This document shows, piece after piece, positions 14,801 through 57,737 of a stretch of DNA of 64,000 nucleotides (positions within the stretch are counted from its first letter, which is position 1; each line of letters begins with the position of its first letter). The notes beneath the pieces were generated by a model. The model saw nothing but the letters and a program-made list of their open reading frames with translations. It searched no databases and had not been told where the DNA came from. Where the stretch lies: positions 41,214 through 105,213 of the forward strand of contig JAPYKE020000547.1 in the NCBI GenBank assembly GCA_028554795.2, read 5' to 3'. A program made the translations under genes and the position numbers. The stretch comes from Sinohyriopsis cumingii. Taxonomy: Eukaryota; Mollusca; Bivalvia; Unionida; Unionidae.

Positions 14801-14869
14801 CTGGTCGTACAAACTTCTACAATGGCTTTGTGCTGAGTGAAGACACCTTGCTGGTCATAGACGAGAATG
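14801..14869 (+). CDS. Host beta-propeller gene exon, 5' part (split by the element)
   Basis: A pyrimidine-rich acceptor ending TTTTTCTGCACAG precedes the exon at 14801. The frame (codon starts 14803, 14806...) encodes NFYNGFVLSEDTLLVIDEN and is interrupted after 22 codons by the viral-type element at 14870. Its reading frame is continued exactly by 30594-31320 on the other side when one GAATG copy is removed. The entering intron is phase 1. The sequence resembles a blade of the NHL/YVTN-like propellers found at the C-terminus of TRIM-type proteins. Family assignment is tentative. Earlier exons were not found in the window. Confidence 0.75.
14865..14869. repeat. Target-site duplication GAATG, left copy
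   Basis: GAATG directly precedes the left inverted repeat and is repeated immediately after the right one at 30590-30594. A 5-bp duplication fits a staggered cut by a retroviral-type integrase; 6 bp is the usual size for Polintons. Confidence 0.85.
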
Positions 14870-15108
14870 AGCAGCAGAGGGGGCGAATCGGACATTTTGT
14901 CCAATCGTTATTTTGCTTAATTATTACTTTCTGCACTCAACGATCTAGTGTCGTCAGCGCCTGGTAAAAAAAAAACGACGACGTCGTTGGGGGATCGTCG
15001 CGTCGTCATTTGGTTTAATTAACACCTTCTGCGCGCCGATCCCCAGCGTCGTCAGCGTCCGGTAAGCACATCGACGACCGCGTCGATGTCATTGCCCCCT
15101 CTGCTGCT
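14870..15108 (+). repeat. Left terminal inverted repeat, 239 bp
   Basis: Begins AGCAGCAGAGGGGGCGA and matches the reverse complement of 30351-30589 at 238 of 239 positions, with no indel; the difference is T at 15093. The repeat's inner end, 15092-15108, is itself an inverted copy of its outer 17 bp. A diverged direct duplication lies inside it (about 14912-14966 and 15008-15064, both ending GTCGTCAGCG-CTGGTAA-like). Confidence 0.95.
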
Positions 15109-15140: not shown

Positions 15141-15815
15141 CTAACCGAATATTTGGTCAAGTCCGATACGATATCGTGTCCGAGGATCATGTAAATTTAT
15201 CGTTATGAATCCATGTGGGGTCGACTGAGCATGACTAAAAAAGTTTCGAAAAACATTAAAGTCCATGTCACCGCCGCACCATGTCTGCCAAATATTTCGT
15301 AGCGTGTGTGTATCAACGCCGTTGAATACAGCAAGAATATTGCAGTTATCTCTGATTACTTTTGGAATCTGAGTGTATCGTTGAGTGACATATATCACGT
15401 CAGTGTTTTTATGCCTGCCTCTGGAAAATATCCTAGCTGGGTTCTTTTGATTGTCTAACATAACATCATCGTACACGACTAGATTGTTAACGTCGCCATC
15501 AATATCATCAATACCCGGTGCATCATTGATATCCGTAATAAACTCAATAACATTCTTTTTAGCGATCGCTGATGCATTCTCGTTGAAATCTTTCAACACC
15601 TCGTAGCATCGTTGATCATCTACGCTAGGAGCAACCAAATACAACTTATCCCACTTCATCCATCTCATTATTAAATTGAGTAACAATTGCGTCTTGCCGG
15701 ATCCAGATGGTCCGATGATAATCATCCGGATCGAGTTTGGTAACGCTGCAACATGCTTAACTGGTTCTCTTGTTTTAGTCGCCGAAAAATCAATTATATT
15801 CATATCTCTATACAT
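15141..15815 (-). CDS. Genome-packaging ATPase (FtsK/HerA, A32-like)
   Basis: A 224-aa P-loop ATPase, the usual size for this family. It is expected to drive viral DNA into preformed capsids. Walker A is GPSGSGKT at residues 35-42, followed by a Leu-rich helix. Walker B is VVYDDV at 113-118. A conserved VTQRYTQIPKVIRDN segment at about 143-157 matches the arginine/glutamine sensor region of A32-type enzymes. The start ATG at 15815 is only 5 bp from the ATG of the divergent zinc-ribbon gene; an internal Met at 15803 is the alternative start. It ends about 30 bp inside the left inverted repeat boundary. A decayed paralogue lies at 50430-50948. Confidence 0.93.
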   Translation of the reverse strand: MYRDMNIIDFSATKTREPVKHVAALPNSIRMIIIGPSGSGKTQLLLNLIMRWMKWDKLYLVAPSVDDQRCYEVLKDFNENASAIAKKNVIEFITDINDAPGIDDIDGDVNNLVVYDDVMLDNQKNPARIFSRGRHKNTDVIYVTQRYTQIPKVIRDNCNILAVFNGVDTHTLRNIWQTWCGGDMDFNVFRNFFSHAQSTPHGFITINLHDPRTRYRIGLDQIFG

Positions 15816-15820
15816 AAATT

Positions 15821-16093
15821 ATGGATCTATATTGTGTGAAGTGTAGAGTGCGTACTGGCACAAATGATATGACAACCGTTACGACAAGAAATAACAGATC
15901 GGCGCTTACTGGTAAGTGTGTACAATGCGGTACAAAGAAATTTAGATTTATTTCTATTAGAGATGTTTTAAAAAAAAGCGAGGAGGTGACATCGCAGCCA
16001 AATTGGCAAAACTCCCCGGAACACCGTGGGCAAAGTATCCAGGAGAAAAACACCTCCCAGGATATAACTACTGTGGCCCCGGAACACGATTAG
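15821..16093 (+). CDS. Small zinc-ribbon protein (DUF5679-like)
   Basis: A 90-aa frame. Residues 4-9 are YCVKCR and residues 33-36 are CVQC, then GTKKFRF: two CxxC knuckles about 24 residues apart, as in the short zinc ribbons common in large DNA viruses and Polinton-like elements. The conserved part ends near residue 48. The remaining tail, after the slippery site at 15967-15973, is low in recognisable features and overlaps the PLA2 frame. The ribbon may therefore be made both alone and as the N-terminus of a frameshift product. The start is ATG 15821, divergent from the ATPase. A decayed copy is at 50974-51085. Confidence 0.85.
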   Translation: MDLYCVKCRVRTGTNDMTTVTTRNNRSALTGKCVQCGTKKFRFISIRDVLKKSEEVTSQPNWQNSPEHRGQSIQEKNTSQDITTVAPEHD

Positions 16094-16360: not shown

Positions 16361-17305
16361 ATGGATTCCATCTATTATTCTCCGAGAGGATACTGGAAGG
16401 GGAAGGCCGCAATTGGTAAGCTTGCAAGCGCTGCAAAGGTAACAAAGACCACTGCGGCTAATTGGTTATCCAAACAGGCTATATGGCAAATCTATCTACC
16501 ACCGCCTAAACAAATCAACTTCTCGCGCTTTGATGTCAGCGTACCTAATGAAGTTCATCAGGCTGATATACTATTTCTGCCGCATGACAACGGTTACAAA
16601 TACGCGCTAACCGTAGTTGATGTTGCGAGTCGATACAAACAAGCGGAACCGTTGAAAACAAAGTCAGCAACTGAAGTAGCCGATGCGTTTGAGCGGATTT
16701 ATCGAAGAGGTCCTCTGCGCTGGCCAAATCTATTACAAGTTGATCCTGGTAGTGAATTTCGCGGCGCTGTTTTATCAACGCTGAAACATCATAGCGTCGC
16801 GATACGACGAGGTCATACTGAGCTACATCGCGATCAGGCAATTGTTGAACGATTCAATCGGACTCTCGCTGAACGGTTATTTGGATATCAATACGCGAAG
16901 GAATTCATCCAAGAAAAACGATCTCGTGAATGGGTTAAAAGGTTGCCAGGTGTAATTGCAGCGTTAAATAACGAGATTACCCGAGTAATCAACATGAAGC
17001 CCAGCGACGCGATTAAATACGAGTATATACCCGGAAAATTAAAAATAAATAGCGTTTCTAAGCCGATTCTTGGCGATGTCACTGTTAGATATCTATATGA
17101 ACCAGGAGAGCTTGAAGGCGGTAAAAAAAGGGCTACCGATCCTATTTGGAGTGTTACCACACATAACATATCAACGATAACACGATCAACTGGTAGACCA
17201 CCGATCTATAGACTGGATTCAACTGCTCCTCAGCGCGGATTTACACGCGAGCAACTACAAGTGATACCTAACGATACTCAATTACCCCCGCGTGGTCTTA
17301 ACTAG
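16361..17305 (+). CDS. Retrovirus-like (DDE) integrase
   Basis: 314 aa from ATG 16361. This start is chosen because the longer frame from 16322 begins with TTG. The core shows D69 (HQADILFL), D128 (QVDPGSEF) and E163 (AIVERFNRTL), a D-x34-E spacing typical of rve-fold integrases of retroviruses, Ty3/mdg4-group retrotransposons and Polintons. The N-terminal 45 residues look like a helix-turn-helix (GKLASAAKVTKTTAANWL), with no HHCC zinc finger. The C-terminal 70 residues are a basic, beta-rich SH3-like tail. It presumably joins the AGCAGCAG termini to host DNA and made the 5-bp duplication. It starts 22 bp after the PLA2 frame and overlaps the convergent replicase by 8 bp. A decayed C-terminal fragment is at 51240-51390. 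Confidence 0.93.
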   Translation: MDSIYYSPRGYWKGKAAIGKLASAAKVTKTTAANWLSKQAIWQIYLPPPKQINFSRFDVSVPNEVHQADILFLPHDNGYKYALTVVDVASRYKQAEPLKTKSATEVADAFERIYRRGPLRWPNLLQVDPGSEFRGAVLSTLKHHSVAIRRGHTELHRDQAIVERFNRTLAERLFGYQYAKEFIQEKRSREWVKRLPGVIAALNNEITRVINMKPSDAIKYEYIPGKLKINSVSKPILGDVTVRYLYEPGELEGGKKRATDPIWSVTTHNISTITRSTGRPPIYRLDSTAPQRGFTREQLQVIPNDTQLPPRGLN

Positions 17306-20300
17306 CGCCGTTGCGTCTATTACACTCAAGACAGGTCAACCTCACATTGTTTTTGACATGACCGAGACTGTTATCGATCCTATCCACGGTAAATTGGCGA
17401 GTGTCTTTATCCGAATAACGCCAACTCATTATACAATTGCAACTCGCGCAGTGATTATTCTGTTGTTGTCGTAGCGAGATTATTAATTCGGCATCAATAT
17501 CAAAACGCCGCTGTTTTTTTTTATCCTGTTGGCGGTAACCCGAGAGTTTTCTATCAATGACGCTTGCATCGATGGTGACTTTGTCGCCGGCTTCGTCGGT
17601 GGCTTCGTCAATAACAATTCTTCGAAGCTGATTTATCCTTCGTACTCTGGACACTGCAAGATAGACTAGATTCGACCATTCGATGAGATTATCAACTATC
17701 CAAACAATTGTGTCCGTGATGGTTAGTCCCTGCGAGGAATGTATTGTTGTTGCGTATCCTAGCGTCCACGGGGATTTATCAGCACGTAGCGCGTCCTCGA
17801 CGACGCTGATATCAACGAGCACGATATCATTCAGCACGAGAATTTGTTTTTCTGTCCGACCTGGAATTTCAACTTCAATGTTCTGCCGCCGTGTGTCCGC
17901 GGGTCTATAACATAACGGCACTGGACGCGTTGGAAACTTTTCCTTATGCAACGTAAACAACTTCCGCTGAAGTGTGTCTCTGACTATCTTTCTACTCGCT
18001 ACAATCAAATCGTTTGGTCTCCATGTTTCCCAGAATTCATTTAACGGCGTTTCCGGAATCACCTCGCGAATTATTTCACATTGAATTCTATCCGGCTGTA
18101 ATCTGATTAATTTCTTAACCTCGCGCAGTTGTTCATCAAGTGCTCGGTAATCAGTATCGGTTTCTTCATAATAGTCCACAAAACCCCTTAACCAATCATG
18201 TGGACCCTCGCCGACAAATGGTGGTGGTTGGCCATGGTCCCCACACATGATTACCGCTGTATTCGCGCGCAGCAACCACTCAAGAAACATTTGTAAAGTA
18301 TCTAACGAAACAGTACATATCTCATCCCAGATGATAATGTCGGGAATAAATTTTTCACCCATTCGATCAGGAGTCCACTCACCGCCGCTGTATCGAAAGA
18401 AGCTGTGATAAGTAACGGCGTCAACATTTCGTTGTTTTATCTCTCGCGCTAGTCTATGAGTCGGTGTAAGCACGATTATACTTGCCCGCGTTCGAAATAA
18501 TTCAATTGCCCGAGTCGTCTTTCCTGACCCGCCACAGCCGCTTAAATAAACCGTCTTGTGTCTACAAATTGGATCAGAACACGATGGTGCATTAGACCAT
18601 TCTGACAATTTATCACCGCGTAAGTAGTTGTTCTCAACGGTGACATCTGCTGACGGGGAATAATCGCGTCGTATTTCATTTTTAATTCTCCATGTACCCC
18701 AACTCTCGTCCGGACTAGTAAACTCGGCTACGTTTCCCTTATACGCTACGTCAACATAAAACGAATCAACGGCTACTCTAACCGCGGTATCGGGGAATCT
18801 ATTTATCATCGAGAATAAATTGATAGCGGCATATCCCAGCATAGACGCCCTCAAATGTGGATACGCCGGGCTGTCTCCATCGCTGTAGGTAACAACTGTA
18901 CCCAACCTCGTTCCATTGGACAAGAAAGCTGTTTTGCAGTTCACGTATCTATTTTTTGCCACTGTGTCCTTGATTACGAAATCATATTCTGCGTCATCTA
19001 TAATCAGCCGTGAGCAATATCGTTTGTAGTCGTGGTTTTTTCCACCTTGTGTGAACTTACCAATTATTCTTCTACCGAGATCTTTTGCCTCGCGGTTTCG
19101 TTGGTTAAATATCCTCCTGGACCATTCGATGATATATTCCTCGTCGGCATCAATGTTTTTTCTGGACTCGTCAATTATGCTATCTAGACGCTCCGGTTCT
19201 GGTAACCAGACTTCAGTCTGTGCCCGGTATGATATAATCGCGTCACTGACAATCAACGAAACTAGCATGCTACAATCAATCATATACCGTAGCAGCGCTA
19301 TTGGCAGCCATCTCTTTTCAGCCATGTGTCTACCGATCCAAATATAGCAACAGCGATGGAGTCCTGCCGCGAATTCAAATGATACTATGCGAGCGAATCC
19401 GGTTAAATCAAAATCAGGCAGTGGTCCATTAATAGCAACACGAGTCATTTCATGACTGGGGTGTCCAAATCGTCTAAAGTACTCAGCGGCGGATCCATAC
19501 CCGAGAAAACTCGCTGGATAACAGGCAACCATATCAACCGAGATCATAGCGTCGCGGTTGTATTCAGTGTTCCATAGTCCACCGTGATAGTATTCCAAAC
19601 AACTGGATTGTACATCCGGTAGAAATTCCCTGCGCGTTGGTCTCCACGCATTTTTCCTTGCTGCAACATGAGCTACAACCGATGGAATCGTAAAACAATT
19701 TGTTAGCAGTTGTTCATCATGCTCCTCAAATTCTATGGCGGTTTTTTTCATCCTGTTGTGAAATGCTTCAGTGCGATATAATTCACCGTTTGGTCTTACA
19801 AACTGATCAAAGGTATCCGCATCGTTTTCAGCGCTGCGAAGTAACCACATTGATACAGGGTCGTTTTTACACAAGTAGGCAATAGCATCAAATAGTTTCC
19901 TCTCCGCGAGAAAACCGTCCTTGGAGAATTGTTCTCCCAGGAATTCTTCGGGGATATACTTTACTGTTCTATCCCGTGGAAATATTGTGATCACGGGCGT
20001 CCATGCGTGTTCGTTATGATCAATAATTTTGATTGGGGCTCCCTTCGATTTATACTTCGATTCGTATAATACTTCACCGGTTATCGTTGTAACGGTTATT
20101 GGAAATCTCAGCGATGTTTCTAATCTCGCTATGTCGCTGATGGTTGCTCCACGCTCTTTTACGGTTAGTTCCCACTGGTTGATTTTGCTACGTCGTAAAT
20201 CAGTCAATTTGTTTCCTCGACATGCATTTGTAAAATGCTCTATTATTCGTTCTGCTACACAATTTATCCCAGTTGACTGTTTCATCGGTTTCAGTTTTCC

Positions 20301-20777
20301 GATATCAGGTTTCTTATTTAACGGGTATATTCCATAAACAACTGCTGTTTCAGGATACGCTCGTTCATAGTATGGTTTGTCAATTCCGGTTAACAACCCC
20401 GGCTTGGAGTCGCGGCTGACAGTGACTGTTTTCTTGTCGCTGAGAACTGGTTCAAATTTATCACGCATGATCCAATCGCCTGATTCCACCCGGACAATGA
20501 ATTTTACTCTGAAGAAATACCTTTTACCGTCAAGTTGTGATATTATCATTGCTGCGCGGTTGTCGTTCATGGTAGCATTAACAATGCCATCAATTCGAAA
20601 TGTTGACCAACTGTGAGATGCGCCATCACGCTTGAATTCATTGATACAATCGCGTATTTTACTCAACAGGGTTTTATCGTTTATTAACGCTTTTGGTGTG
20701 TCCTTGAGGACTCTATCGAGATTAAACCTAATATTTTTCCGGGGTTTAATTGCTGCCAATCTCTCGAACTCATCCAT
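17298..20777 (-). CDS. Fused replicase: polymerase-like + SF1 helicase + HNH
   Basis: 1,159 aa from ATG 20777; the longer frame to 20825 would overlap the divergent gene. The N-terminal 400 residues are unassigned, with DHNEHAW near 253-259. Polymerase-like motifs follow: A (SVDMVACYPASF, 413-424), B-like (RRIIGKFTQGG, 569-579) and C (VAVDSFYVDV, 668-677), matching the D..SLYPS / K-x-xYGK / DTDS scheme of family B loosely. An SF1 helicase occupies about 735-1060: Walker A GCGGSGKTT 747-755, IIIWDEI 814-820, GDHGQ 845-849, HSSQGLT 1013-1019, LAVSRVRR 1040-1047. The C-terminus (about 1105-1159) is an HNH/zinc module with CASC, VDRIDNSLGHVKNNVRL and CLECNRRNG. The helicase call is strong; the polymerase call is moderate. 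I do not recognise this architecture from classical Polintons. A decayed copy occurs at 51680-57180. Confidence 0.85.
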   Translation of the reverse strand: MDEFERLAAIKPRKNIRFNLDRVLKDTPKALINDKTLLSKIRDCINEFKRDGASHSWSTFRIDGIVNATMNDNRAAMIISQLDGKRYFFRVKFIVRVESGDWIMRDKFEPVLSDKKTVTVSRDSKPGLLTGIDKPYYERAYPETAVVYGIYPLNKKPDIGKLKPMKQSTGINCVAERIIEHFTNACRGNKLTDLRRSKINQWELTVKERGATISDIARLETSLRFPITVTTITGEVLYESKYKSKGAPIKIIDHNEHAWTPVITIFPRDRTVKYIPEEFLGEQFSKDGFLAERKLFDAIAYLCKNDPVSMWLLRSAENDADTFDQFVRPNGELYRTEAFHNRMKKTAIEFEEHDEQLLTNCFTIPSVVAHVAARKNAWRPTRREFLPDVQSSCLEYYHGGLWNTEYNRDAMISVDMVACYPASFLGYGSAAEYFRRFGHPSHEMTRVAINGPLPDFDLTGFARIVSFEFAAGLHRCCYIWIGRHMAEKRWLPIALLRYMIDCSMLVSLIVSDAIISYRAQTEVWLPEPERLDSIIDESRKNIDADEEYIIEWSRRIFNQRNREAKDLGRRIIGKFTQGGKNHDYKRYCSRLIIDDAEYDFVIKDTVAKNRYVNCKTAFLSNGTRLGTVVTYSDGDSPAYPHLRASMLGYAAINLFSMINRFPDTAVRVAVDSFYVDVAYKGNVAEFTSPDESWGTWRIKNEIRRDYSPSADVTVENNYLRGDKLSEWSNAPSCSDPICRHKTVYLSGCGGSGKTTRAIELFRTRASIIVLTPTHRLAREIKQRNVDAVTYHSFFRYSGGEWTPDRMGEKFIPDIIIWDEICTVSLDTLQMFLEWLLRANTAVIMCGDHGQPPPFVGEGPHDWLRGFVDYYEETDTDYRALDEQLREVKKLIRLQPDRIQCEIIREVIPETPLNEFWETWRPNDLIVASRKIVRDTLQRKLFTLHKEKFPTRPVPLCYRPADTRRQNIEVEIPGRTEKQILVLNDIVLVDISVVEDALRADKSPWTLGYATTIHSSQGLTITDTIVWIVDNLIEWSNLVYLAVSRVRRINQLRRIVIDEATDEAGDKVTIDASVIDRKLSGYRQQDKKKQRRFDIDAELIISLRQQQNNHCASCNCIMSWRYSDKDTRQFTVDRIDNSLGHVKNNVRLTCLECNRRNGAS

Positions 20778-21153: not shown

Positions 21154-21684
21154 ATGGACCAAGAATTTCAGCCGCATCCCCTGCTCGTCAATTACGAGGC
21201 ATCTCGCGACGGTATTGTTAGAAATCGTAGACTGAAGAAGCCGGTTGGATGGAAAAACAATCACGGGTATTTAATGTTTACTGCTGGAGGGAAAAAATAT
21301 CTCTGTCACAGAATCATCTATGAATGTTTCCACGGATTGATCAAAGATAGTCTCGTTATTGATCACATTGATTCTAATTATCAAAATAATAGACTGTGTA
21401 ATCTGCAAGCCATCTCTCAGAGTGAAAATAGTAAAAAAGGCCAAACTGGTAAATACTCAAAGAAAGCAAAACCCGTAAAGTCATTTGATACAACAACTCA
21501 CGAGGAAAAAATATTTCAGTCGATGAATGAGGCAGGAAAATATTTTGACATTTGTATCGCCTCAATACAATTTGTTGCAGAACGAATATATCAAACAGCG
21601 ATCTCAAAAAAGACGGGTCATAGAATTCGATTTTCATATATAACATCAAAGGGAGATAACTCGTTTTGTGATAGCGTCGCATGA
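21154..21684 (+). CDS. Free-standing HNH homing-type endonuclease
   Basis: 176 aa from ATG 21154. The N-terminal region (YEASRDGIVRNRRLKKPVGW...GYLMFTAGGKKYLCHRIIYECFHG) resembles a NUMOD4-type DNA-reading segment running into an HNH core: HR at about 49-50, LVIDHIDSNYQNNRLCNLQ at about 67-85. The C-terminal part (KSFDTTTHEEKIFQSMNEAGKYF) resembles a NUMOD1-type helix-turn-helix. Such enzymes are common in phage and large DNA virus genomes and nick or cut intronless alleles. Here no intron or intein is visible. It is the second HNH domain of the element, after the replicase C-terminus. It follows the Cys-rich gene by 13 bp. Confidence 0.88.
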   Translation: MDQEFQPHPLLVNYEASRDGIVRNRRLKKPVGWKNNHGYLMFTAGGKKYLCHRIIYECFHGLIKDSLVIDHIDSNYQNNRLCNLQAISQSENSKKGQTGKYSKKAKPVKSFDTTTHEEKIFQSMNEAGKYFDICIASIQFVAERIYQTAISKKTGHRIRFSYITSKGDNSFCDSVA

Positions 21685-22310: not shown

Positions 22311-22426
22311 TATGCCTGCAATCTGCCACAACACTCGAGTGGAGATCTACGGCATTGTACTGTCCATGTATGCCTGCAATCTGCCACAACACTCGAGTGG
22401 AGATCTACGGCATTGTACTGTCCATA
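22311..22426. repeat. 58-bp tandem duplication
   Basis: Two nearly identical units starting TATGCCTGCAATCTGCC and ending ATTGTACTGTCCAT, at 22311-22368 and 22369-22426. Both contain CTCGAG and AGATCT palindromes. They lie just upstream of the late gene block. Confidence 0.9.
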
Positions 22427-24354: not shown

Positions 24355-24379
24355 AAACATCAACATGATAAATAATAAA
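24353..24379 (+). promoter_or_regulatory. Late-gene upstream motif at the capsid gene
   Basis: The stop codon of the core gene overlaps AATTGAAAAC, followed by AAATAATAAA immediately before the second ATG of the capsid frame (24380). This spacing suggests that 24380 rather than 24365 is the true start. Confidence 0.5.
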
Positions 24380-25807
24380 ATGTTTGCGCGTACCGCTGAT
24401 CCCGCGTTTGATATGGATGCCCCAGTGCGCAGGGATGATTCTGTCCGTGATTATCAATATTATTCTTATTATGCAGCGCAACCCGACCTACGATCGCGAA
24501 TTGAACTTCAGGTCCAAGATACCAGTAAATACTTTCTGCCGTGTGAAGCGTTTATCGAAATTGAGGGAGAACTCGTGACAAATGCCGCCGATAATACACC
24601 ATACGCAGATGACCATCGTGTTCGAGTTGGCTTCGTCAACAACGGTATCATGGCGTTATTTGAGAGCGCCAGATATCTTATTGACGGGCGAGAAATTGAA
24701 TCAATAGAACGCGAGGTTGATGTTGCAACGACGATAATTGGGTTGGCGAGATACTCGGATGATTATACAAGATCGGCGGGCCCATCTATGATGTTTGCGA
24801 AGGACACCACCAATAACGCTGACCATATTCAGTACATCAACGTGCTGGCGGAAAGAGATACCGCAACTGACCCACAGGCTGAAGCAGCCAATCCAGACCG
24901 CAGAGCAAGACCAGGTGCTAATTTTAATATTATAAAAAGCACCAACAATGATTACAATCTAGGATTCGCAGCACGAGTAGGAATGTTGCAAGGACCACGC
25001 CGACAGTTTTCATGCGCGATTCCACTCCATCACATATTCGGATTCTGCAGAAATGTTAGAAAAGTTGTCTATGGGGCTAAGCATACAATCGCGCTGACGC
25101 GAAGGGGCGATGATAACAATGCAATATGGCATGCTGCTGGCGTCGCTGCCGGTAAAGTCATTTTAACTAAAATGGCATTGTGGATGCCGGTGCTGACTCC
25201 ATCAGTTACCACGGAAGCACGATTGTTAGCATTTATGGAACAGGGGGGAAAATCGTTGTTGAGTTGGCTAGCGGTAACAACTGATGCTAAAGAGGATAAC
25301 GTCGCCGATACGTTTACATGGCACCTGGCATCAAAACAAGGTGTTTCAGCCCCGCGTCATATATTCATAGCGCTACAGAATAGGGAACGATTGGGCAGTC
25401 AAGAACGCAGCCATATGATATTTGATCAATTAGGAGTCAGGGATGTTTCGCTGAGAATAAACGGACAACAGGAACCATCCGAGGATATACAGCTTAATTA
25501 CGGCGACAACCATATCGCACGTGTGTACCATCGATTGCTGTCGTATATGGGTCGTGATCAAAACGTCGACACTGGTTTGCAAATATCACAACTTGATTTT
25601 AAAAACCTGTATCCGATTTATTACTTTTCGTTGGAACATCTTGATTTAACGAGACAATCCGTCGTTGATATACACTTCAGAGCTCGTATAGCCCCGGGTG
25701 GTGTTAATTACAGAGCGGTTGCTGTCATTCTCAGCGATAAATCAATGCTGCTAGAAGGTGTTGGTGGACGAATGAGAATCGTTGATGCGCCAGTGGAAAA
25801 CATGTAA
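24365..25807 (+). CDS. Major capsid protein (double jelly-roll type)
   Basis: 480 aa from ATG 24365, or 475 aa from ATG 24380 (MFARTADPAFDMDAPVRRD), which fits the upstream motif better. The size, position between the core-like and pX-like genes, and beta-strand-rich sequence match the MCP of adintoviruses and Polinton-like viruses. Recognisable regions are an N-terminal conserved ELQVQDTSKYFLPCEAFIEI, a central ALFESARYLIDGREIE and a C-terminal DFKNLYPIYYFSLEHLDL followed by VVDIHFRARI, typical of the last strands of these capsomers. Trimers would form the icosahedral shell. No stops or frameshifts are present. Assignment is by sequence character and synteny; a structure prediction would settle it. 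Confidence 0.88.
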   Translation: MINNKMFARTADPAFDMDAPVRRDDSVRDYQYYSYYAAQPDLRSRIELQVQDTSKYFLPCEAFIEIEGELVTNAADNTPYADDHRVRVGFVNNGIMALFESARYLIDGREIESIEREVDVATTIIGLARYSDDYTRSAGPSMMFAKDTTNNADHIQYINVLAERDTATDPQAEAANPDRRARPGANFNIIKSTNNDYNLGFAARVGMLQGPRRQFSCAIPLHHIFGFCRNVRKVVYGAKHTIALTRRGDDNNAIWHAAGVAAGKVILTKMALWMPVLTPSVTTEARLLAFMEQGGKSLLSWLAVTTDAKEDNVADTFTWHLASKQGVSAPRHIFIALQNRERLGSQERSHMIFDQLGVRDVSLRINGQQEPSEDIQLNYGDNHIARVYHRLLSYMGRDQNVDTGLQISQLDFKNLYPIYYFSLEHLDLTRQSVVDIHFRARIAPGGVNYRAVAVILSDKSMLLEGVGGRMRIVDAPVENM

Positions 25808-25836: not shown

Positions 25837-26313
25837 ATGTCGTATAGTGTCGTCAGTGTAGAGTTGACTGATGGTCAAGTCAAGAAATTACGATCAAAGT
25901 CGGCTAAACAATGCGGAACCACAATAACGCTGAAGCCGTCACAGATGGCAGGTGGTAATCATAAGATATCGTTGACGGCGCGTCAAATAAAACATTTCAA
26001 TGATGCGATGAAGAATAAAAAGGGTGTTCAAATAGATTTTTCGGCCGCAGCGATTAAAAACATGGAAAAGACCGGTGGAATATTTCCGCTGTTAGCTGCG
26101 ATTCCAGCGTTGATTGCCGCGGCCGCACCAGCAGTGGCTAAGGCGGCGGCGTTAGGAGCCGTTGGTACCGCGGCGGGGATGGCATTGAAGAAGGCAACCG
26201 GGAAAGGCTACAAAAAAAAACGACCCGTGGCCGGAAAGGGTCTAAGACTACCGGGAACCCCGTATTCATGGTACTCGGGAAAGGGTCTAAGACTACCGGG
26301 AACCGTTTATTGA
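25837..26313 (+). CDS. pX/pVI-like small virion protein
   Basis: 158 aa from ATG 25837. The N-terminal half holds repeated phrases ending KPSQM and TARQI (TITLKPSQM...KISLTARQIKHF...). A strongly hydrophobic Ala-rich helix (FPLLAAIPALIAAAAPAVAKAAALGAVG, about 87-114) follows, then a basic GKGYKKKRP stretch. The C-terminus contains two copies of KGLRLPGT encoded by a near-perfect 48-bp tandem duplication. The layout matches the membrane-active/DNA-binding precursor beside the MCP in adintovirus-like genomes, usually processed by the adjacent adenain-type protease. The end overlaps the upstream open part of the protease frame. Confidence 0.8.
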   Translation: MSYSVVSVELTDGQVKKLRSKSAKQCGTTITLKPSQMAGGNHKISLTARQIKHFNDAMKNKKGVQIDFSAAAIKNMEKTGGIFPLLAAIPALIAAAAPAVAKAAALGAVGTAAGMALKKATGKGYKKKRPVAGKGLRLPGTPYSWYSGKGLRLPGTVY

Positions 26314-26324
26314 CTCGGGAGTTA

Positions 26325-26777
26325 ATGACTCCAATGTCTAATTTTGATTTAATAGACGCCGCAAACGCGTTAGCGATAAAAAACTTCAGAGGTGTTTTTA
26401 TGAGGGATCAATTACCGGCGGCCCCAAGGAATACTGAAACCGGCATAATTAACCTCGATGGGTCCTCCGGAGCGGGAACTCATTGGGTTGCATACGCGAT
26501 TGATCCGCGTGCGATCGTCTATTTTGATTCATACGGGTTAGCCCCGCCGAAAGAGTTCATGCGGTATATCCGGGCGTGTTCAGCCCGGGTTTTTTATTCC
26601 ACGCTGCCAACACAGCAATTAAGTGACCCACCGATATGTGGCCGCGAGGTATTGAACGTACTTGCGGCGATTTCATCATCGCGAAAACCACCTCATATGG
26701 TTGTAAACGAATACACTAGTGGGGTCGTAGAAGCTCAACGGATTTTAGAGAATAACATTTACAATAATAATGATTGA
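26325..26777 (+). CDS. Adenain-type cysteine protease (maturation protease)
   Basis: 150 aa from ATG 26325, or 147 aa from ATG 26334; the open frame back to 26268 overlaps the upstream gene and is probably untranslated. In the 150-aa numbering the likely catalytic residues are His53 (GTHWVAYAID), Asp68 (VYFDSYG) and Cys105 (PPICGREVL), with Gln97/98 as oxyanion candidate, in the His-Asp-Gln-Cys order of adenovirus and Polinton proteases (C5/ULP-like fold). It would cleave the core-like and pX-like precursors during maturation. It overlaps the fibre gene by 8 bp. Confidence 0.9.
   Translation: MTPMSNFDLIDAANALAIKNFRGVFMRDQLPAAPRNTETGIINLDGSSGAGTHWVAYAIDPRAIVYFDSYGLAPPKEFMRYIRACSARVFYSTLPTQQLSDPPICGREVLNVLAAISSSRKPPHMVVNEYTSGVVEAQRILENNIYNNND
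26755..26769 (+). promoter_or_regulatory. Late-gene upstream motif (before 26770)
   Basis: AACATTTACAATAATA lies inside the 3' end of the protease gene, immediately before the fibre ATG. The TTTACAATAA core is identical to that before 22910 and 25837 even though it is coding here. Confidence 0.5.
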
Positions 26778-28449
26778 TATCTGGGGGCGACCGGTTTCGG
26801 CGCTGAAAGAATCCACGGAAACGGCCGCCGCCGACATAAAAAAACTAATTGAGGATGAAATCGCTGATATGTTGAATCTAACAAGTGTTGACCCGGGCGA
26901 AATAGTTGTATTTCAAGACCGCCAGGGTAAATTGAAATCCGGTAATGTGTCACTGAATGACGTTTTAATACGACATCCTAATGTCGCCAATGGCACTATC
27001 GCGTTGTATACCGGCGACGGACGACTCAAACCGGGTAAACATATATCGGAGGTGACGAATGAGATAACATCCGTTCGAGACAGACTTACATCGTTGAATA
27101 TATCTATGATCGAATTCGACGCGCGGGTGAAAAAATCTGTCACCGATATACAACTCACTACCGCTAGTTTTTTTGGGACCCCGACGGTAACCGAACCGAA
27201 TCTTGCAACAATAAAAAATACTATTTTGGAGTTTACGACGCTGTCGGGCCAATTTACCTCGTTACGAAAAAATGTTAACAGAATCGATGACAACTTTGAT
27301 AAATTCTTTGGTAAAAAAAATACCAAGCCGGATGAGATCACAATAACTATAAATGATATCACTGCGTATAGACAGGAAATAGAAACAATCAAAACTGATG
27401 TTGCAACGAACAAAAAGAGTGTAGACTCGCATGAACGGGAAATAGAAATAATCGGCGCTAATGTTGCAACGATCATAAATAATGTAGACTCGCATGGACG
27501 GAAAATAGAAACAATCAAAACTGATGTTACAACGATCATAAATAATATGGACACGCATACACAAGAAATAGGAACAATGAAAACTGATATTGAAGCGAGC
27601 AAAAAGAGTGTGGACGCGCATACACAGGAAATAGGAACAATCAAAACTGATGTTGAAGCGAACAAAAAAAATGTAGACGCGTATTGGCGGGGAATAGGAT
27701 TAATCAAAACTGATGTTGCAGCGAACAAAAAAGGTATAGACGTGCATACATATGAAATAGAAACAATCAAACTTGATGTTGCGGCGAACAAAAAAAGTAT
27801 GACCGAGAATACACGGGAAATAGAAACAATCAAAACTAATGTTGTAACGATCATAAATAATGTAGACGCGCATGGACAGAGAATAGAAACAATTAACACT
27901 AATGCTATAGCGAGCAAAAAAAGTATAGACGTGCATGAAGGGGAAATAGAAGTACTCAAAATTAATGTTATAGCGAACAAAAAAAGTATAGACACGCATA
28001 TACAGGAAATAAATACACTCATTACTAGGGTTGCAACGAACAAAAAAGATGTGGACACGCATATACAGGAAATAGGAACGATTAAAACTGATGTTGAAGC
28101 GATTAAAGACGGACTACCGAGAGTAGCAGAGCAATTCGAAAAAATAAAAATCCCTCATGAGAACATCATCAACACAGTATACACAATTCGGCATGGATCA
28201 TTCGATTGGACTCCTACACAGAATACAGTAAATATTACCGCAACTGTTAAGGGTATTTATCGATTGACACTGGTTTCAATGATGCAGTTTAATATATTAT
28301 CGTCGAGTTCATCCGGGTTTAACAATACAATATCAACAATTATAGACAGGAACGCAACTGAACAGTTTACAATTTATGCCGTTGATAGAAATCTAACCCG
28401 GGCAAACATTACATGGTATGTGGAATTTGCAGCGAATCTAAGTAATTAA
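26770..28449 (+). CDS. Trimeric fibre-like protein with 21-residue coiled-coil repeats
   Basis: 559 aa from ATG 26770. The N-terminal 110 residues form a unique tail (IVVFQDRQGKLKSGNVSLND...). A shaft from about residue 200 to 450 consists of about twelve repeats of 21 residues around EIETIKTDV-x-x-NKKSVD, a perfect multiple of the heptad. A beta-rich C-terminal head of about 90 residues (GSFDWTPTQNTVNITATVKG to WYVEFAANLSN) resembles C1q/TNF-like or viral fibre knobs. Tail-shaft-head organisation suggests the receptor-binding spike on the penton. Repeat number is likely variable between copies. A 381-aa antisense frame over the repeats is a shadow. Confidence 0.82.
   Translation: MIDIWGRPVSALKESTETAAADIKKLIEDEIADMLNLTSVDPGEIVVFQDRQGKLKSGNVSLNDVLIRHPNVANGTIALYTGDGRLKPGKHISEVTNEITSVRDRLTSLNISMIEFDARVKKSVTDIQLTTASFFGTPTVTEPNLATIKNTILEFTTLSGQFTSLRKNVNRIDDNFDKFFGKKNTKPDEITITINDITAYRQEIETIKTDVATNKKSVDSHEREIEIIGANVATIINNVDSHGRKIETIKTDVTTIINNMDTHTQEIGTMKTDIEASKKSVDAHTQEIGTIKTDVEANKKNVDAYWRGIGLIKTDVAANKKGIDVHTYEIETIKLDVAANKKSMTENTREIETIKTNVVTIINNVDAHGQRIETINTNAIASKKSIDVHEGEIEVLKINVIANKKSIDTHIQEINTLITRVATNKKDVDTHIQEIGTIKTDVEAIKDGLPRVAEQFEKIKIPHENIINTVYTIRHGSFDWTPTQNTVNITATVKGIYRLTLVSMMQFNILSSSSSGFNNTISTIIDRNATEQFTIYAVDRNLTRANITWYVEFAANLSN
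27371..28115 (+). repeat. 63-bp in-frame tandem repeats in the fibre gene
   Basis: About twelve diverged 63-bp units starting GAAATAGAAACAATCAAAAC. Each encodes 21 residues (three heptads) of the fibre shaft. Length changes by whole units keep both frame and heptad register. Confidence 0.9.
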
Positions 28450-29016: not shown

Positions 29017-30336
29017 ATGTCGCTGAACCCCGAAGGGTTTCAATTACTTCAGCGGATCGCGGAGAACACCACTCCGGTACAAACAAATATGATATCAATA
29101 ACGTCAACGAAACCCGAATTCAGTGTGAACTTCCCGTCGCCGGTTCCAGTGAAGGAAATAGCGCTGGCAAAATTGCGAGTATATCACAGTTGGCCTAATA
29201 TCCGAGCGGATGCATTTAACGGACAACAACCTAATAACTCGCTGGTTTTTGCACGGACAAATAAACCCGATGGGACCCCAGACTGGGAGGAGGTTACAAT
29301 ACCAACTGGGTCATACCAAATAGAACAAATCAATAAAGAATTTCAACGCAGGATAAAATCGATCACAGGAAAGGAATCAAAAATCGCTATTACGGTTCAT
29401 GAACCGACGTTATCGTCGACGATTGAAATAAGCACACCGGGGTATATGGTTGATATCTATAACAGTTCAATAAGAACCATACTAGGATGGCCTAAGAATC
29501 CACCTCATGAAATCCCCGCGGACTTGAACACAAATGCGCAATCGTATCATGAGGTGGATCCCAGTTATCGAGATGTTTTGTTCGTTATGAAAAACGTGTC
29601 ATCCCCCGACTGGTTTTCATTTCAAGACAGGAATACCATGCAATGGTATTTTCAGTACGAAGAAATTCCTAAATCGCGCATCAATGCCGAACTTAATTTA
29701 AATAATATCAATAGTTATTTTGCCGAGATTAATCGTATTTACCAATCACAACTAGAACAACTACGGGAAACAAAAGCACGAAAACACGTTGAGGTATTAA
29801 ATCAACTTATATCAGACATGGAATATATCAATGAACGAATCGTCGAGGTAATATCCACTGACAGAACTGGTAATAAACAAAAATTCCTAACCGAGTATAA
29901 TATCACAGAAGCCGATTTACCTGATTTCAAGTTTCCAGGATACAACGCGCCAGAACTAAGAAAGTCTCTTAATGATTTTCTCGGTCCATCAAATATCCTC
30001 AGACACGATAACGGAGATGATGGTAGGCATATTGCTCCATACAACGTAAATATTGCATCGGTGATAGCAATCAATCTAGTGTGTGATGCTATCGAAGGGA
30101 GTTACCAGGTGGATACCAAGCAATCAAATCAGGCTCAACAGGGGTACATCCTTTATTCATTTTCACCAACAGCCCCTCCGGGATTTTTAATCGTTGAGAG
30201 TCCGATTAATCCGGTCTATATGCGATGCCATGATCGGTTTTTAACGAGAATTAATTTTAGACTTACCGATCAGTCAAATAACCTAATTGATCTGCAAGAG
30301 GAGGAGTTAGTGATCACTCTGTTTGTAAGATCATAA
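29017..30336 (+). CDS. Penton / minor capsid protein (single jelly-roll type)
   Basis: 439 aa from ATG 29017. The N-terminal NMISITSTKPEFSVNFP and EIALAKLRVYHSWPNI are the familiar start of minor capsid proteins of Polintons and Polinton-like viruses. A middle helical insertion (about 225-290) contains KARKHVEVLNQLISDMEYI. The C-terminal part ends with RINFRLTDQSNNLIDLQEEE and LVITLFVRS, the last strand typical of the family. Pentamers would close the vertices and anchor the fibre encoded upstream. It is the last gene before the right inverted repeat, 14 bp away. Confidence 0.87.
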   Translation: MSLNPEGFQLLQRIAENTTPVQTNMISITSTKPEFSVNFPSPVPVKEIALAKLRVYHSWPNIRADAFNGQQPNNSLVFARTNKPDGTPDWEEVTIPTGSYQIEQINKEFQRRIKSITGKESKIAITVHEPTLSSTIEISTPGYMVDIYNSSIRTILGWPKNPPHEIPADLNTNAQSYHEVDPSYRDVLFVMKNVSSPDWFSFQDRNTMQWYFQYEEIPKSRINAELNLNNINSYFAEINRIYQSQLEQLRETKARKHVEVLNQLISDMEYINERIVEVISTDRTGNKQKFLTEYNITEADLPDFKFPGYNAPELRKSLNDFLGPSNILRHDNGDDGRHIAPYNVNIASVIAINLVCDAIEGSYQVDTKQSNQAQQGYILYSFSPTAPPGFLIVESPINPVYMRCHDRFLTRINFRLTDQSNNLIDLQEEELVITLFVRS

Positions 30337-30350
30337 AGACTTTCATTGTA

Positions 30351-30589
30351 AGCAGCAGAGGGGGCGATGACATCGACGCGGTCGTCGATGTGCTTACCGG
30401 ACGCTGACGACGCTGGGGATCGGCGCGCAGAAGGTGTTAATTAAACCAAATGACGACGCGACGATCCCCCAACGACGTCGTCGTTTTTTTTTTACCAGGC
30501 GCTGACGACACTAGATCGTTGAGTGCAGAAAGTAATAATTAAGCAAAATAACGATTGGACAAAATGTCCGATTCGCCCCCTCTGCTGCT
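30351..30589 (-). repeat. Right terminal inverted repeat, 239 bp
   Basis: Reverse complement of 14870-15108 with one difference (30366). Here the inner inverted copy of the terminal 17 bp is exact. It ends CTCTGCTGCT at 30589 and is followed by the second GAATG. Confidence 0.95.
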
Positions 30590-31320
30590 GAATGTGTGGA
30601 ACCTCCAGCTTTACAGTCGTCGTGACGGCAAACTTCTTTCTACCCCACACAGCCTGGGGACCATTCCCATGGATATATGTCTTATTAGCAAGACTGAAGT
30701 CGCTGTGTGTCTGTGGAACAGTAAGATTGTAAGCCTGTCATTTAAATCTATAGATGACGTTAAACGGGTCAAGACATTAGATGTAAGGACAGGATTTAAT
30801 TTATGTCATTCAGTGGGAAAACTGAATTCAGAGAAACTCGTTGTCAGCGGTAAGAAAGACGACAACGACAGGACGTTGTACTGGTGTGTTGTAAACCTTA
30901 TCGATGGACGTGTAGACGCAACTCACAAGATTTGTAAAGGGGGCATTAGTAGTAGTAGTCACTTGTCCATAAAAGACAACACTGTTTACATCTCGTGTTG
31001 GACTTCTGACTCTACTACTAATGGTGTGTATGCATATGATATTTTAAATCCACACACACACAAGTTTCTGTATCAACACCAGGAATTAAAAACACCCGGG
31101 TCAATAATTGTTGATAGGAGGAATTTAATTTTCGTGAGTGACAGGGACTCTTACAGAATTCATCAGCTGACAGACAGCGGTCTACTAGTGACCATACACA
31201 CAGTGTTATCAAGGCTCCGTGATGTATTCTATGATGACCAGCATGGAGTTATGTACACCACAAGTGGCTATGGAAGTAATGTGATAACTGTATACAGACT
31301 GGATTACTTACATCAAACAG
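30590..31320 (+). CDS. Host beta-propeller/NHL-like gene exon, 3' part
   Basis: The first five bases are the right target duplication. The frame (codon start 30594) continues the one broken at 14869 and runs 242 codons to a donor AAACAG|GTAATT at 31320, leaving in phase 1. The entering intron is also phase 1, so the exon is symmetrical. The protein has repeated short beta-strand blades, for example KLVVSGKKDDNDRTLYWCVV, HLSIKDNTVYISCW, GSIIVDRRNLIFVSDRDSYR and DVFYDDQHGVMYTTSG. These resemble NHL/YVTN propellers of TRIM-like proteins. The frame can be read beyond the donor to 31469, but that tail is AT-rich and unlike the rest. A frame beginning at 30555 starts inside the inverted repeat and is an artefact of the insertion. 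Confidence 0.8.
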
Positions 31321-34800: not shown

Positions 34801-35037
34801 TATGTTTGTGTGTTCTGAGAATAATGTAATGTGATCATATGGTTTCAATGAATACCTAGTGATTCTGGTTTAAGCAGAGACTGGAAACAAATTCGAGTCC
34901 TTTGCTAAGTTCCTGATAAAATAATGTTTCAGAATATTTTGTCAATTTACATTTTTAGACTGTTAATACATTGTCGTCATCAAAACTGGCATTATCATGT
35001 GATTTCAGATTCAGTCATCCCTGCAGAGGTCCTAAAA

Positions 35038-35275
35038 ATGGATACAAGATCCCTTCAGATGTACAAGGAGGCTCTTGATGAGGGAAAGGAAAAGGTTTAC
35101 AACATCAGGGTGATGGTTGTAGGGCAATATGGGGTGGGGAAAACAACATTGACCCAGCGTCTTTTGGGAAAAAATGTAAACTTATCTGAGAGACAAAGCA
35201 CTGAAGGAATAGATGTTCATGTAGAATGCTCTAAAGTTTCCTTGCCAGATGGAGAGTGGACAACACAAGACAAAA
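35038..35275 (+). CDS. Roc-type GTPase gene, exon with P-loop
   Basis: From ATG 35038 the frame encodes YKEALDEGKEKVYNIRVMVV, then the P-loop GQYGVGKTTL and LLGKNVNLSERQSTEGIDV. The exon ends at donor ACAAAA|GTAGGT (35275), phase 1. It may begin upstream at an acceptor near 35008 or 35026, and the start is not certain. Together with the exons at 47607 and 49574 it makes a Ras-of-complex (Roc) domain like those in ROCO proteins and related invertebrate multidomain GTPases. Such genes are expanded in molluscs as far as I recall. Function is unknown, possibly innate immunity or cell death signalling. Confidence 0.82.
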
Positions 35276-36382
35276 GTAGGTCACATTTTTTTGTCTGATG
35301 ATTATTGTTCTCATTCACACATTTTTAAATACCATTCGTCAATCTACTTATTCATTCTTTTTTCTGAAGAGCCTGCTTCTTTAGGCAGTTGGCGGACAGG
35401 GAATATAATGCATCTAATAGGAATCAACCATTTAAATTGGAAGGGGAGTGGGCCCTGGAGTTTATTTGATAAAAAAGTTTTTCCATTCCCCAAACAGTTT
35501 GAAAAAATAATATTGTACTTGTTTGTACAACTACACTTTTTCGATTTATTTACAAAACGTCTGTAAACGATTTCAGCCACACTAGTCAGATGTCTTCTTG
35601 GTATAAAGGCTTTTCAAGTTTGTAGAATGATGCAGATCCAAATTCAGCATAAATTAGATACAATGCATTTAGAGCCAATAAATATATTTCATTTTGTTGT
35701 AAATTAATGGGGTTTGAGTATAGTATTTACAAGTTGTGTTTGTTAAATAAAAAAATGTTGCAGTAATTTTTGTGACAAAAATAGAAAGTTATGGGTCAAT
35801 ATATAAGTTTTACTCAACAAAACTATTTCACATATGACAGATACAGGTAGATCTTTTTGAGAAAATCCAAAAATAATTTCACCAGTATTTGTTAAGTCCT
35901 GTAATTTCTTTGTGAACTTCTATATTTAATAAATTCCAAACCTCTGAAGAAACAAATATATGATAAAGATAGTTTTTTTTTTTTAAATTGAAGCTATGGT
36001 TACTATTAAATATGCAATGTGAATTCTTGTTTCTTGTGTGTGTCTTTTAGCTTTTCAGATTTTTATCTATGTATTTTGCATTGTTTACATGTACTTTTAT
36101 TCGTGTTTCTTTACCTCATAGCTCTAATGCTGAAACAAGTGTTTTCTTTGGAAAGCACATTGAGCATGTTTATGTTTTATTTTAATCTCTCAAAATTTGT
36201 CCTACCAGATGCTTTTTTATTATTTATTTCAAACATATTGTGTATATGCTTTATTAATACAACTTTGATGAAATTTATCTTCTTAAGTATCTGCAATTCA
36301 GTTTGACAGTTTTCAATTTATTTGTTTATTGGACATCATATAACCACTATTGTGCTAATGTACCATAAAATCCTACATAAGT

Positions 36383-46420: not shown

Positions 46421-47606
46421 AAAGCTGATATTCAATATTTGTACCACAGCAGCTAATCCCATTATTAATTATATAGCCAAGTTTTGTTTACACTGTGAAC
46501 AAACTCTTCTGATATTAATGTCTTAACCTGTGGAAAAAATGGACATGGAAAAAGAACTGCAACAATAAGAGTGATGAAGGAGATTAGAGACAATGCATGA
46601 AGTATATTTCTTTAAATATCCATTTTTCATAACCTATACTATTTGTTATGTAAAATACGTGATTTAATCTTCATTCAGAGAGTATTTTCCCCCATTTTCT
46701 AGTTATAATAATCAGTTCCTCAGGTCGTAGTAATATCAAGCTGGTACTGAATGAAACCTGTATATCTGACCCTTAACATGGCACCAGAATACCCATCTCG
46801 GAAATCTTTCTACCGCTAATTATTTTGCATGAATGTTGGCGTTATTGTTGTGTTTTCACTAAAACACATTTGCAGTATTTAATTAGTTTTAAATGAAAAT
46901 ATTACATATCTAATCACACCATATGCACTATTTTGTGAATGAGTTTATTTGCAAGAACTTTGGGGTGAATTTAAAAGACACCAATTACATATTGTACTTC
47001 AATGGACTAACGATCACAGTGACAGGCAGATCATGATGCGACTTGACATTTAGTTGCAGGCTGATGAACTGTTTGATAGCCAGTTCTCTGATACTGACTT
47101 TATTCCCAAATGTCTAGGCTCGCGTTTTGTAGTTGTATTGGCTTGTGAACATATCAACACAAACAAGTCTGAATGGATTTTATTACAGCACTTTTCGAAT
47201 ATACCGGAAGGATGCCTCAGATGATGCCACTTAAATGACTTCTCTCTTCGTTTACCCCCCCCCCAAAAAAAAAATTAAGTATAGATTAAACTTAGCATGT
47301 ATGTATAGTTTCACATAGAGACAAATAAAATGATTTTATATCCATCACAACAGTACCAGGGTCAGTGACAATGGGAAAGAACAATTTACTGAGATTAAGT
47401 AGTCTTATGCAGATTTTAATGTAGACCAATACGAAAATATGTTTGTTACCAGATTTGGTGTGTTGGGTTATCTCAAAAGTATAAATTATAGTTCTAATAC
47501 CCAGCCATAAAAAATAATGAAAGCATGGAATTTTTTCAGTCACTGAAGCACCAGCCCTTTGAAAGAACTCTTATTAGTTTTGTGTAATTTATTCTTTTCC
47601 TTTCAG

Positions 47607-48137
47607 ATGTAGAGAATTACTCTAGACTTCAGCGCCTTGTAAAACTTCTAAATGAGCATGTTCAGAAGCAAACTTCAGAGGGTAAACAGGAGAGGCAGGT
47701 TGAGATTGTTGACGTAGTCACCAGCAAAGAACATGATAATAGACATCCCCAACATGATCATCTTGTCAGTGCAGAACGAGACATCAGTCTAGAAGTCAAG
47801 CCACCACCTTCCCAAGGAGAACAATCACCCAGTGCAAGAGTGGTCCCAGAATCAAACAGTGAGATAGTGTCCAAGAAAAATGAGAAGGATATAGTTATGG
47901 ACATCCTCCAATTGGTCAATGAAAACTCAGGCAAGCTAGAGAAGAGTATGGTGGAATATGCAACATTAGCGTTGTGGGACTTTGCAGGACAATATGTGTT
48001 CTACACTACTCACCAGACATTCCTGACCAGTCGTGCGATTTATCTCTTGGTCATAGATCTCAGTCAACAAGTCACAGAGCCCATTAAAGATGAGTGTTTC
48101 CTTGATACGGAGGGGATACAACCGTGTAAAGTTCATG
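47607..48137 (+). CDS. Roc-type GTPase gene, exon with G3 motif
   Basis: Acceptor TTTCCTTTCAG|ATGTAG and donor TTCATG|GTAAGG define the exon. Phase 1 on both sides fits the flanking exons. It encodes [15 protein letters not shown], a charged low-complexity linker, then [20 protein letters not shown] and [20 protein letters not shown]. The DFAGQ is the G3/switch II motif of Roc domains (DxxGQ), and the following strand is its usual continuation. The long linker between P-loop and G3 is unusual and may be a lineage-specific insertion. Confidence 0.88.
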
Positions 48138-48394
48138 GTAAGGGAAGCATGTTTAAGTGTAAAGGTGAAAGTTGGATTTGTCAGGCAAAAATGTATGTAC
48201 GTAGAAAGTTAGAAAGTCAAAACATTTGAAGTTCATGCTTAAAAAAGAAAGAAAGTACCATTATCTAAAATGCGTTATCCGGCTTACTTCAGAAATTACA
48301 TACTGGTTTTAATTTTTTAAAAAACCATGACATGTTGAAAAGAGGCTTATATCATAAAACTGCTAGACAAGTAAATAATTACCAAAAAATAGTA

Positions 48395-50192: not shown

Positions 50193-50429
50193 TTAATAAA
50201 AGCACTGTGAAATTACAAACAAAATGCAAATGCATGCTGTAAATAATTATGGTAATATTGTAAACTATTCAAACATTTCTTGCAGTTGAAATACGTGCAT
50301 TTTAAGAGAACTATTGAATGAGATCACACCGTCTTTTGTTGCTGTTGTGGACATTGTGACATATTTCATCACTTGATAATATATAGATGGTGGCCAATAT
50401 AGTTTTGTACCCTTAGCATGTACAAAACT

Positions 50430-50948
50430 TTTTAAACTGAGATATGTTCATATCACCGGAGCACCACGTCTGATGCATATTTCGCAGGATATGTATATCA
50501 ACACCTTTAAAGATAACCAAAATAATACAGTTATCTCTGATTATTTTGGGGATATGAAGGTAACGTAAATGACGTGTTGTTATGCCGGCCTCGTGAAAAT
50601 AGTCGGGCTGGAGATGCTTGTTTGTCAAGCATGACATCATCATAAGCCATATGAATGTTAACACTACCATCAAGATCTTCGGTGGACGGAGCATCATTGA
50701 TGTCAGGAATAAATTCAACATCTATCATTGAATTCCTTGATCACATTATAACATATCTGGTCACCAGCGGGCGGCGCTAATAAATACAGTTTGCCCCATT
50801 GAAGGCATCATATTATTATGTTGAGGTGCAACTGAGTTTTGTCAGACCCAGACGGGCCAATGATAATGGTGAAAGCAGAATTTGGTACCTGGATGATGCT
50901 TAACGGGTGCTTGTTCTTTTGTGGATGAAAAGTCAAGCAAGTTCATTT
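50430..50948 (-). pseudogene. Decayed packaging ATPase
   Basis: Two broken frames match the intact ATPase. PKIIRDNC and TWCSGDMN near the C-terminal side and EFIPDINDAP in the middle are clear, and the P-loop region near 50840-50870 is only visible at the DNA level. It has frameshifts and stop codons. Confidence 0.85.
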
Positions 50949-50973
50949 TGTAGGAACATATTATTCATAATCA

Positions 50974-51085
50974 TGAGTCTATATTGTGTTCTATACAAGA
51001 TGGTCACTGATACCATTGGTTTGAAAGTGACGATAAAGATTCATGGGTGAGCAGTTACAGGTGATGCATGTAAAATGCGGTGCAT
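50974..51085 (+). pseudogene. Decayed zinc-ribbon gene
   Basis: ATGAGTCTATATTGTG aligns with the start of the intact zinc-ribbon gene, and AAATGCGGTGC with its second CxxC. It keeps the divergent layout with the ATPase remnant. The PLA2 part is not recognisable after it. Confidence 0.65.
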
Positions 51086-51239
51086 AAATATAATTATGCG
51101 TCTTCTGGGATTGCTGTTGGTGATATCGCTCTGGCACTCAGATAATTACAGAAACCAGTGCTGGGTAACAAAGTAACAATCAGGTAATTATATGAAATTG
51201 GTGAACTGATAGGCGATAAAAGAAAGCAACCAATACTAT

Positions 51240-51390
51240 ATGGAGTGCGATCACACGTGTGGTATGATCTACGGCTAAACCTGCAATCCGTGGACTAGAT
51301 TTGTCGGCTCCTCAGCGTGGATTTCTCCGTGAACAATTACAGGTAATTCCTGACAATACACAATTACCAACATCATGGATACTGTGTTAA
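51240..51390 (+). pseudogene. Decayed integrase C-terminus
   Basis: The text GCTCCTCAGCGTGGATTT, CGTGAACAATTACAGGTAAT and CAATTACCA matches intact 17221-17290 (GCTCCTCAGCGCGGATTT, GCGAGCAACTACAAGTGAT, CAATTACCC). The catalytic part is deleted. Confidence 0.7.
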
Positions 51391-51679
51391 AATAGCAGCA
51401 CCAGGGTGCTAGCTCCTCGAAATCAGTTATATTGAAGATATGTTAGGATTAAAGTTTTGCATGTATGACCCCGACTACTAACAGTTGGGTCTATGGTAAA
51501 ATGCCGTGGTTTATTAGTTAAATATTGTCATAATATTATTGGGTTACCCTGAGCGTAGTGACTATTGTGTTGTCTCAACTTATGATGAATACAGGATCAA
51601 GATCAAACTCGTGCTTAAGTTGTTTGTTTGTCTCCTCTTTGATATTTTGTATCCTTTATAGCGGAGACATTTTTGTAAC

Positions 51680-53975: not shown

Positions 53976-53978
53976 GAT

Positions 53979-56620: not shown

Positions 56621-56624
56621 CATA

Positions 56625-57180: not shown

Positions 57181-57369
57181 ATTATATATAATTTGGTATG
57201 GTGGGGTGTCCTTTCTTATCAGGGCCTAATATTACTTTGTCAAAATCAAACATTGAAGCCGCTTTCCTAATTAAATACTTTCTTATATAATGTCATACTA
57301 CATAAACAATTGCATGTGGGTGCTGAGTGAAACTCAGAAATTTAATAAGACATGAAAGGTGATTACTAC

Positions 57370-57600: not shown

Positions 57601-57737
57601 TTTTAATGTAAAAATCTATAATTAAAGAAATATTATAAAATCAACAACCTCATCAATAAGTTAATCTATTTATAAACTTAAATCTAAAATCTATCTGTTG
57701 ACAGCAATGATCAACACATATAGTATAAGAAAGAAGA

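Follow-up and report, generated by a model that had tools for sequence, protein, structure and literature searches.

A probable replicase of the pPolB-S1H kind in a Polinton-type element of the bivalve Sinohyriopsis cumingii

The fusion of a protein-primed family B DNA polymerase (pPolB) with a helicase is said to have been reported in a paper of 2016. Tlr1-like helicases, which occur in Polinton-like viruses (PLVs), the Tetrahymena Tlr1 element and transpovirons, are described by Krupovic and colleagues (2024 preprint, PMC11071308) as pPolB palms with TPR1 and TPR2, no exonuclease and the first Asp of the DTD motif missing. They further carry an OTU domain with its Cys and His, a variable middle domain at the terminal-protein position, a C-terminal superfamily 1 (SF1) helicase and, at the C-terminus, GIY-YIG or HNH (PMC11071308). 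The same source proposes the name pPolB-S1H fusion and expects these proteins to be active polymerases, given that this Asp is also missing from several PolBs known to be active. We analyzed a window of 64,000 nucleotides from the bivalve Sinohyriopsis cumingii (contig JAPYKE020000547.1), in which a virus-like mobile element bounded by terminal inverted repeats (TIRs) encodes a probable replicase of this kind. An earlier note, made from the sequence alone, had proposed an undescribed replication system; the architecture is instead that of the Tlr1-like helicases, and what is new is the animal host and the apparently intact element.

Layout of the replicase and its polymerase palm

A single unbroken frame, opening with ATG and running for 1,159 codons to its stop, encodes the replicase and is the longest open reading frame (ORF) of the element. 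It lies on the minus strand, while the plus-strand frame over the same interval is riddled with stops. The earlier note had placed a 1,159-aa protein at exactly this position, leaving the strand unstated. Its regions are as follows, all on the minus strand.

17298..20777, minus: replicase, pPolB-S1H fusion (Tlr1-like helicase), 1,159 aa; Pfam, PDB, PHROG, fold and homolog alignment evidence
20388..20777, minus: residues 1-130, alpha/beta domain at the terminal-protein position, identity unproven; predicted structure and weak fold matches
19998..20360, minus: residues 140-260, probable OTU-like cysteine protease domain, C173 and H254/H257; conserved residues
18657..19979, minus: residues 267-707, protein-primed family B palm region, with motif A D415, GKF K574 and motif C D671; fold match and conservation
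17619..18566, minus: residues 738-1053, SF1 (Pif1/RecD/Dda-like) helicase; Pfam, PDB, PHROG and conservation
17307..17555, minus: residues 1075-1157, HNH / endonuclease-VII-like module; PHROG and conservation

A search of 5.8 billion proteins returned 55 relatives; of nine listed by a profile search, two had not been found before, which brings the homologs to 57. Residue counts below refer to the alignment of the replicase with these homologs, rows lacking a given column being left uncounted. The gene is real and well conserved, and probably functional.

The polymerase motifs A, B and C are detected by none of the Pfam models, which find only the helicase in this protein, but they are kept across the 57 homologs, as the earlier note had read them. 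Motif A takes the form D-x-x-x-C-Y-P, with D415 and P421 present in 55/55 rows and Y420 in 51/55 (Phe in 4). The motif B region reads I-G-K-F-T-Q and its K574 is invariant (57/57). At the position of the motif B Lys itself, 46 of 56 rows have Arg, six have Lys, three have Asn and one has Cys. For motif C the alignment gives A-T-D-S-x-Y (A669 55/56, D671 56/56, Y674 56/56), the S. cumingii protein itself having A-V-D-S. Compared with DTDS in ordinary PolBs, Ala thus takes the place of the first Asp and the second is retained, so that the string VAVDSFYVDV, singled out earlier, corresponds to motif C and its first Asp to the catalytic one.

A fold search with the predicted structure identified a palm of family B, of the protein-primed kind; an adintovirus polymerase was matched, and the mavirus pPolB was the second-best viral match. 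The palm fold on which the earlier reading of motifs A and C depended is therefore present in the model. The match to phi29 starts at model residue 267 and phi29 residue 52, and a remnant of the exonuclease fold is possible. Motif A and GKF are separated by 158 residues, compared with 142 in phi29, and GKF and motif C by 98, compared with 67; these distances leave room for both TPR1 and TPR2. Conserved exonuclease acids are missing: none of the columns from residue 221 to residue 394 reaches 90% Asp or Glu in at least 40 rows. D106, D133 and E220 are conserved but lie upstream of the phi29-matched part.

On a rival reading, the palm has lost its activity and the protein serves only as helicase and nuclease, the element being copied by a polymerase of the host or of a co-resident virus. 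The loss of the first motif C Asp, initially judged inactivating by Krupovic et al. (as stated in PMC11071308), points in this direction, as do the unconserved exonuclease acids and the prevalence of Arg in place of the motif B Lys. Against this, neither D415 nor the second Asp of motif C varies among homologs with 34-79% identity to the replicase, and active PolBs without the same Asp include those of mavirus, mitochondrial plasmids, pipolins and some archaeal enzymes (PMC11071308). We consider a dead palm unlikely.

The remaining domains flank the palm on both sides. The helicase is recognized by Pfam AAA_19 (E 1.2e-11) and AAA_30 (E 2.1e-8), with UvrD_C_2 under its cut-off (E 0.011), and by Pif1 proteins of the PDB in two matched stretches (E 5e-7). 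The Lys of its Walker A motif is kept in 55/56 rows, the Asp and the Glu of Walker B in 53/54 each, and the Arg of motif VI in 46/46. The C-terminal HNH / endonuclease-VII-like module matches PHROG 1035 at residues 1082-1158 (E 1.3e-10), with H1140 in 45/45, C1149 in 46/46 and C1152 in 45/45 rows. The helicase and HNH assignments of the earlier note are upheld by these matches, and so is its central observation that one protein joins palm, SF1 helicase and HNH, placed where an ordinary Polinton pPolB would be. Upstream of the palm, residues 140-260 are a probable OTU-like cysteine protease domain, judged by the conservation of C173 (45/45), H254 (47/48) and H257 (44/48), either of the two His being the candidate catalytic one. 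Residues 35-106 are predicted to form alternating helices and strands, with weak fold matches. Separately, the free-standing HNH protein at 21154-21684 adjoins the replicase as a second endonuclease beside the fused HNH and has a possible NUMOD1 domain, below cut-off.

Together, these features indicate that the replicase works like, and by its architecture belongs with, the pPolB-S1H fusions, and that it replicates the integrated Polinton-type element in the bivalve genome; we put the probability of this reading at roughly 0.85. The N-terminal alpha/beta domain, located at the terminal-protein position of related pPolBs, may prime synthesis at the TIR ends, and the OTU-like protease (C173 with H254 or H257) would free it from the rest of the protein. 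The protein-primed palm, with its predicted fold and conserved catalytic Asp, would then extend from the primer. The fused SF1 helicase, whose motifs are conserved, could open the strand ahead and, following Krupovic et al., accompany the loss of proofreading. The C-terminal HNH module probably derives from a homing endonuclease, and replication may not depend on it.

Place among known systems and distribution

Six features of the Tlr1-like helicases are found in the replicase: the palm, the state of the exonuclease acids, motif C, the order of the SF1 helicase, the OTU Cys/His and the C-terminal endonuclease. Shared are a protein-primed palm lacking the exonuclease acids and the first DTD Asp, an upstream OTU Cys/His, a C-terminal SF1 helicase and a C-terminal HNH or GIY-YIG; the Tlr1 element, like the bivalve one, also has an RVE integrase (PMC11071308). 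The difference is the animal host, and the likeness is judged by published description rather than sequence alignment. A literature search found no Tlr1-like replicase in an animal, but it left out most subscription papers and is weak evidence of absence.

Other systems share fewer of these features. The mavirus pPolB likewise has a protein-primed palm, without the exonuclease and the first motif C Asp, but its helicase is a separate SF3 protein (PMC11071308). OmPLV of Oxyrrhis marina combines an SF1 helicase and a pPolB in one protein, with the helicase N-terminal and a full exonuclease kept (PMC12721341). An OmPLV-type helicase-pPolB was rejected for the replicase, which has the opposite order: its Pfam helicase matches (738-853 and 1007-1044) follow the palm. 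Cryptophyte PLVs unite an SF1 helicase and a homing endonuclease in one large protein, but GIY-YIG is C-terminal in 16 Cryptomonas PLVs and the HNH units are N-terminal to the helicases (PMC12220804).

Alternatively, a Polinton pPolB and a Pif1-type helicase may have fused independently in animals, in convergence with the Tlr1-like proteins. In favor of this, our comparison yielded no link by sequence with proteins of Tlr1 or transpovirons, and in OmPLV the same parts were joined separately, in the opposite order. It would demand many coincidences with the Tlr1-like helicases, in domain order, exonuclease acids, motif C Asp, OTU Cys/His and C-terminal endonuclease (PMC11071308), and we regard it as improbable, somewhat more so than a dead palm. 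An ordinary, merely diverged pPolB of Polinton/Maverick or adintovirus type is suggested by the same kind of element, with its RVE integrase, packaging ATPase, double jelly-roll (DJR) capsid protein and TIRs, but polymerases of that type retain the exonuclease and are not fused to a helicase (PMC11071308), so the helicase fusion already contradicts this reading, as do the altered motif C and unconserved exonuclease acids, and it is very improbable. The absence of a PolB gene, claimed in the earlier note, holds insofar as none of the 14 other element ORFs scanned matches a PolB model in Pfam (ORFs below 90 aa and opposite-strand overlapping ORFs were outside the scan), but the replicase itself is a diverged pPolB without the exonuclease residues.

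A source is named for 6 of the 57 relatives. The sea slug Elysia crispata accounts for four of the 55 found in the protein search, and a Candidatus Thiodiazotropha metagenome-assembled genome for one; these bacteria are lucinid clam symbionts, and the relative is therefore perhaps host DNA. The profile search added one from the mycorrhizal fungus Diversispora epigaea, on a 252-kb contig, whose sequence stops inside the HNH part and which suggests either between-kingdom transfer or contamination. This distribution suggests a spread in molluscs with at least one fungal case, contamination being possible for any of them. Tentatively, animals, or at least molluscs, may harbor a distinct capsid-encoding Polinton-type lineage that uses a pPolB-S1H replicase instead of a pPolB. 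With members in a mussel, a sea slug and a mycorrhizal fungus, such a lineage would have crossed kingdoms, and the replicase type would not be confined to protists and giant-virus parasites.

The claim of a new replication system is thus corrected and the replicase placed in a described family. The design was already described from elements of protists and from those associated with giant viruses, so it is chiefly the animal host that makes this case of interest. The apparently intact copy lends itself to two questions: whether pPolB-S1H proteins are active as protein-primed polymerases, and how the loss of the exonuclease is tied to the gain of a helicase as such elements evolve.

Host element and a decayed second copy

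The other features of the element are listed below.

14865..14869: left copy of the 5-bp target-site duplication GAATG; sequence read
14870..15108: left TIR, 239 bp, 100% complementary to the right, outer end beginning AG; sequence read
15141..15815, minus: genome-packaging ATPase, 224 aa; Pfam Pox_A32, E 5.1e-12
15821..16093, plus: small DUF5679 protein between ATPase and integrase, a zinc ribbon by our reading of its cysteines; Pfam, E 4.8e-12
16361..17305, plus: retroviral-type (RVE) integrase, 314 aa; Pfam PF00665, E 5.5e-9
21154..21684, plus: free-standing HNH endonuclease, 176 aa; Pfam HNH_3, E 3.8e-12
24365..25807, plus: element ORF; Pfam scan
26268..26777, plus: adenain-like cysteine protease, 169 aa; Peptidase_C5, E 0.011, below cut-off
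29017..30336, plus: candidate penton / minor capsid protein, 439 aa; by position, with no Pfam match above cut-off
30351..30589: right TIR; sequence read
30590..30594: right copy of GAATG; sequence read

Polinton/Maverick hallmarks are present, namely TIRs, RVE integrase, packaging ATPase and a DJR capsid protein, the last recognized by Pfam among the element ORFs; the animal copy, which combines TIRs, integrase and capsid genes in one element, appears intact. Polintons/Mavericks produce a 6-bp target-site duplication, and GAATG does not extend to six on either side. A bona fide Polinton/Maverick was rejected on this ground and on that of a pPolB with a fused helicase and without the exonuclease acids. 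We write "Polinton-type" and not "a Polinton" because an exonuclease-bearing, helicase-free pPolB is lacking.

The element sits inside a host exon and is a true insertion, since the host frame runs on unbroken across the empty site and is related to proteins of Sinanodonta woodiana. When the flanks are joined with one GAATG removed, a 342-residue stop-to-stop frame spans the junction (48 and 19 residues in the other frames). The right part of the exon has three relatives, all from this unionid, at 52-53% identity over 79%, in a search that reached proteins between 0.55 and 1.75 query lengths. Taken by themselves, these matches point to a probable bivalve as the host, perhaps in or near Unionida.

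Further along the window, at 50425-61228, tblastn with the element proteins located pieces of an ATPase, an integrase, a replicase and the candidate penton, all of them decayed. The replicase pieces (51408-57181) are 26-36% identical and occupy all three minus-strand frames, and LINE-like reverse-transcriptase ORFs, recognized by eye, separate the N-terminal and central ones. Also by eye, the Walker A Lys has become Asn, the Walker B Asp-Glu is lost, and the motif A Asp and CYP fall in separate frames. This is an old, diverged Polinton-type relative and not a second working example. The earlier note had seen in it (51680-57180) a copy conserving the same motifs, which the damaged motifs do not bear out. 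It is the homologs, and not this copy, which show that the fusion did not arise by misassembly.

Within the element, a 559-aa protein at 26770-28449 is built largely from repeats resembling coiled coils, differs from these at its C-terminal end and could be a fibre-like attachment protein. A 171-aa ORF begins with a near-identical direct duplication of about 57 bp (22312-22368 and 22370 onward; 18/19 residues). In the host flank, the ORFs at 34924-35298 and 47588-48229 show Roc-like (Ras of complex) matches, the first just under the Pfam cut-off.
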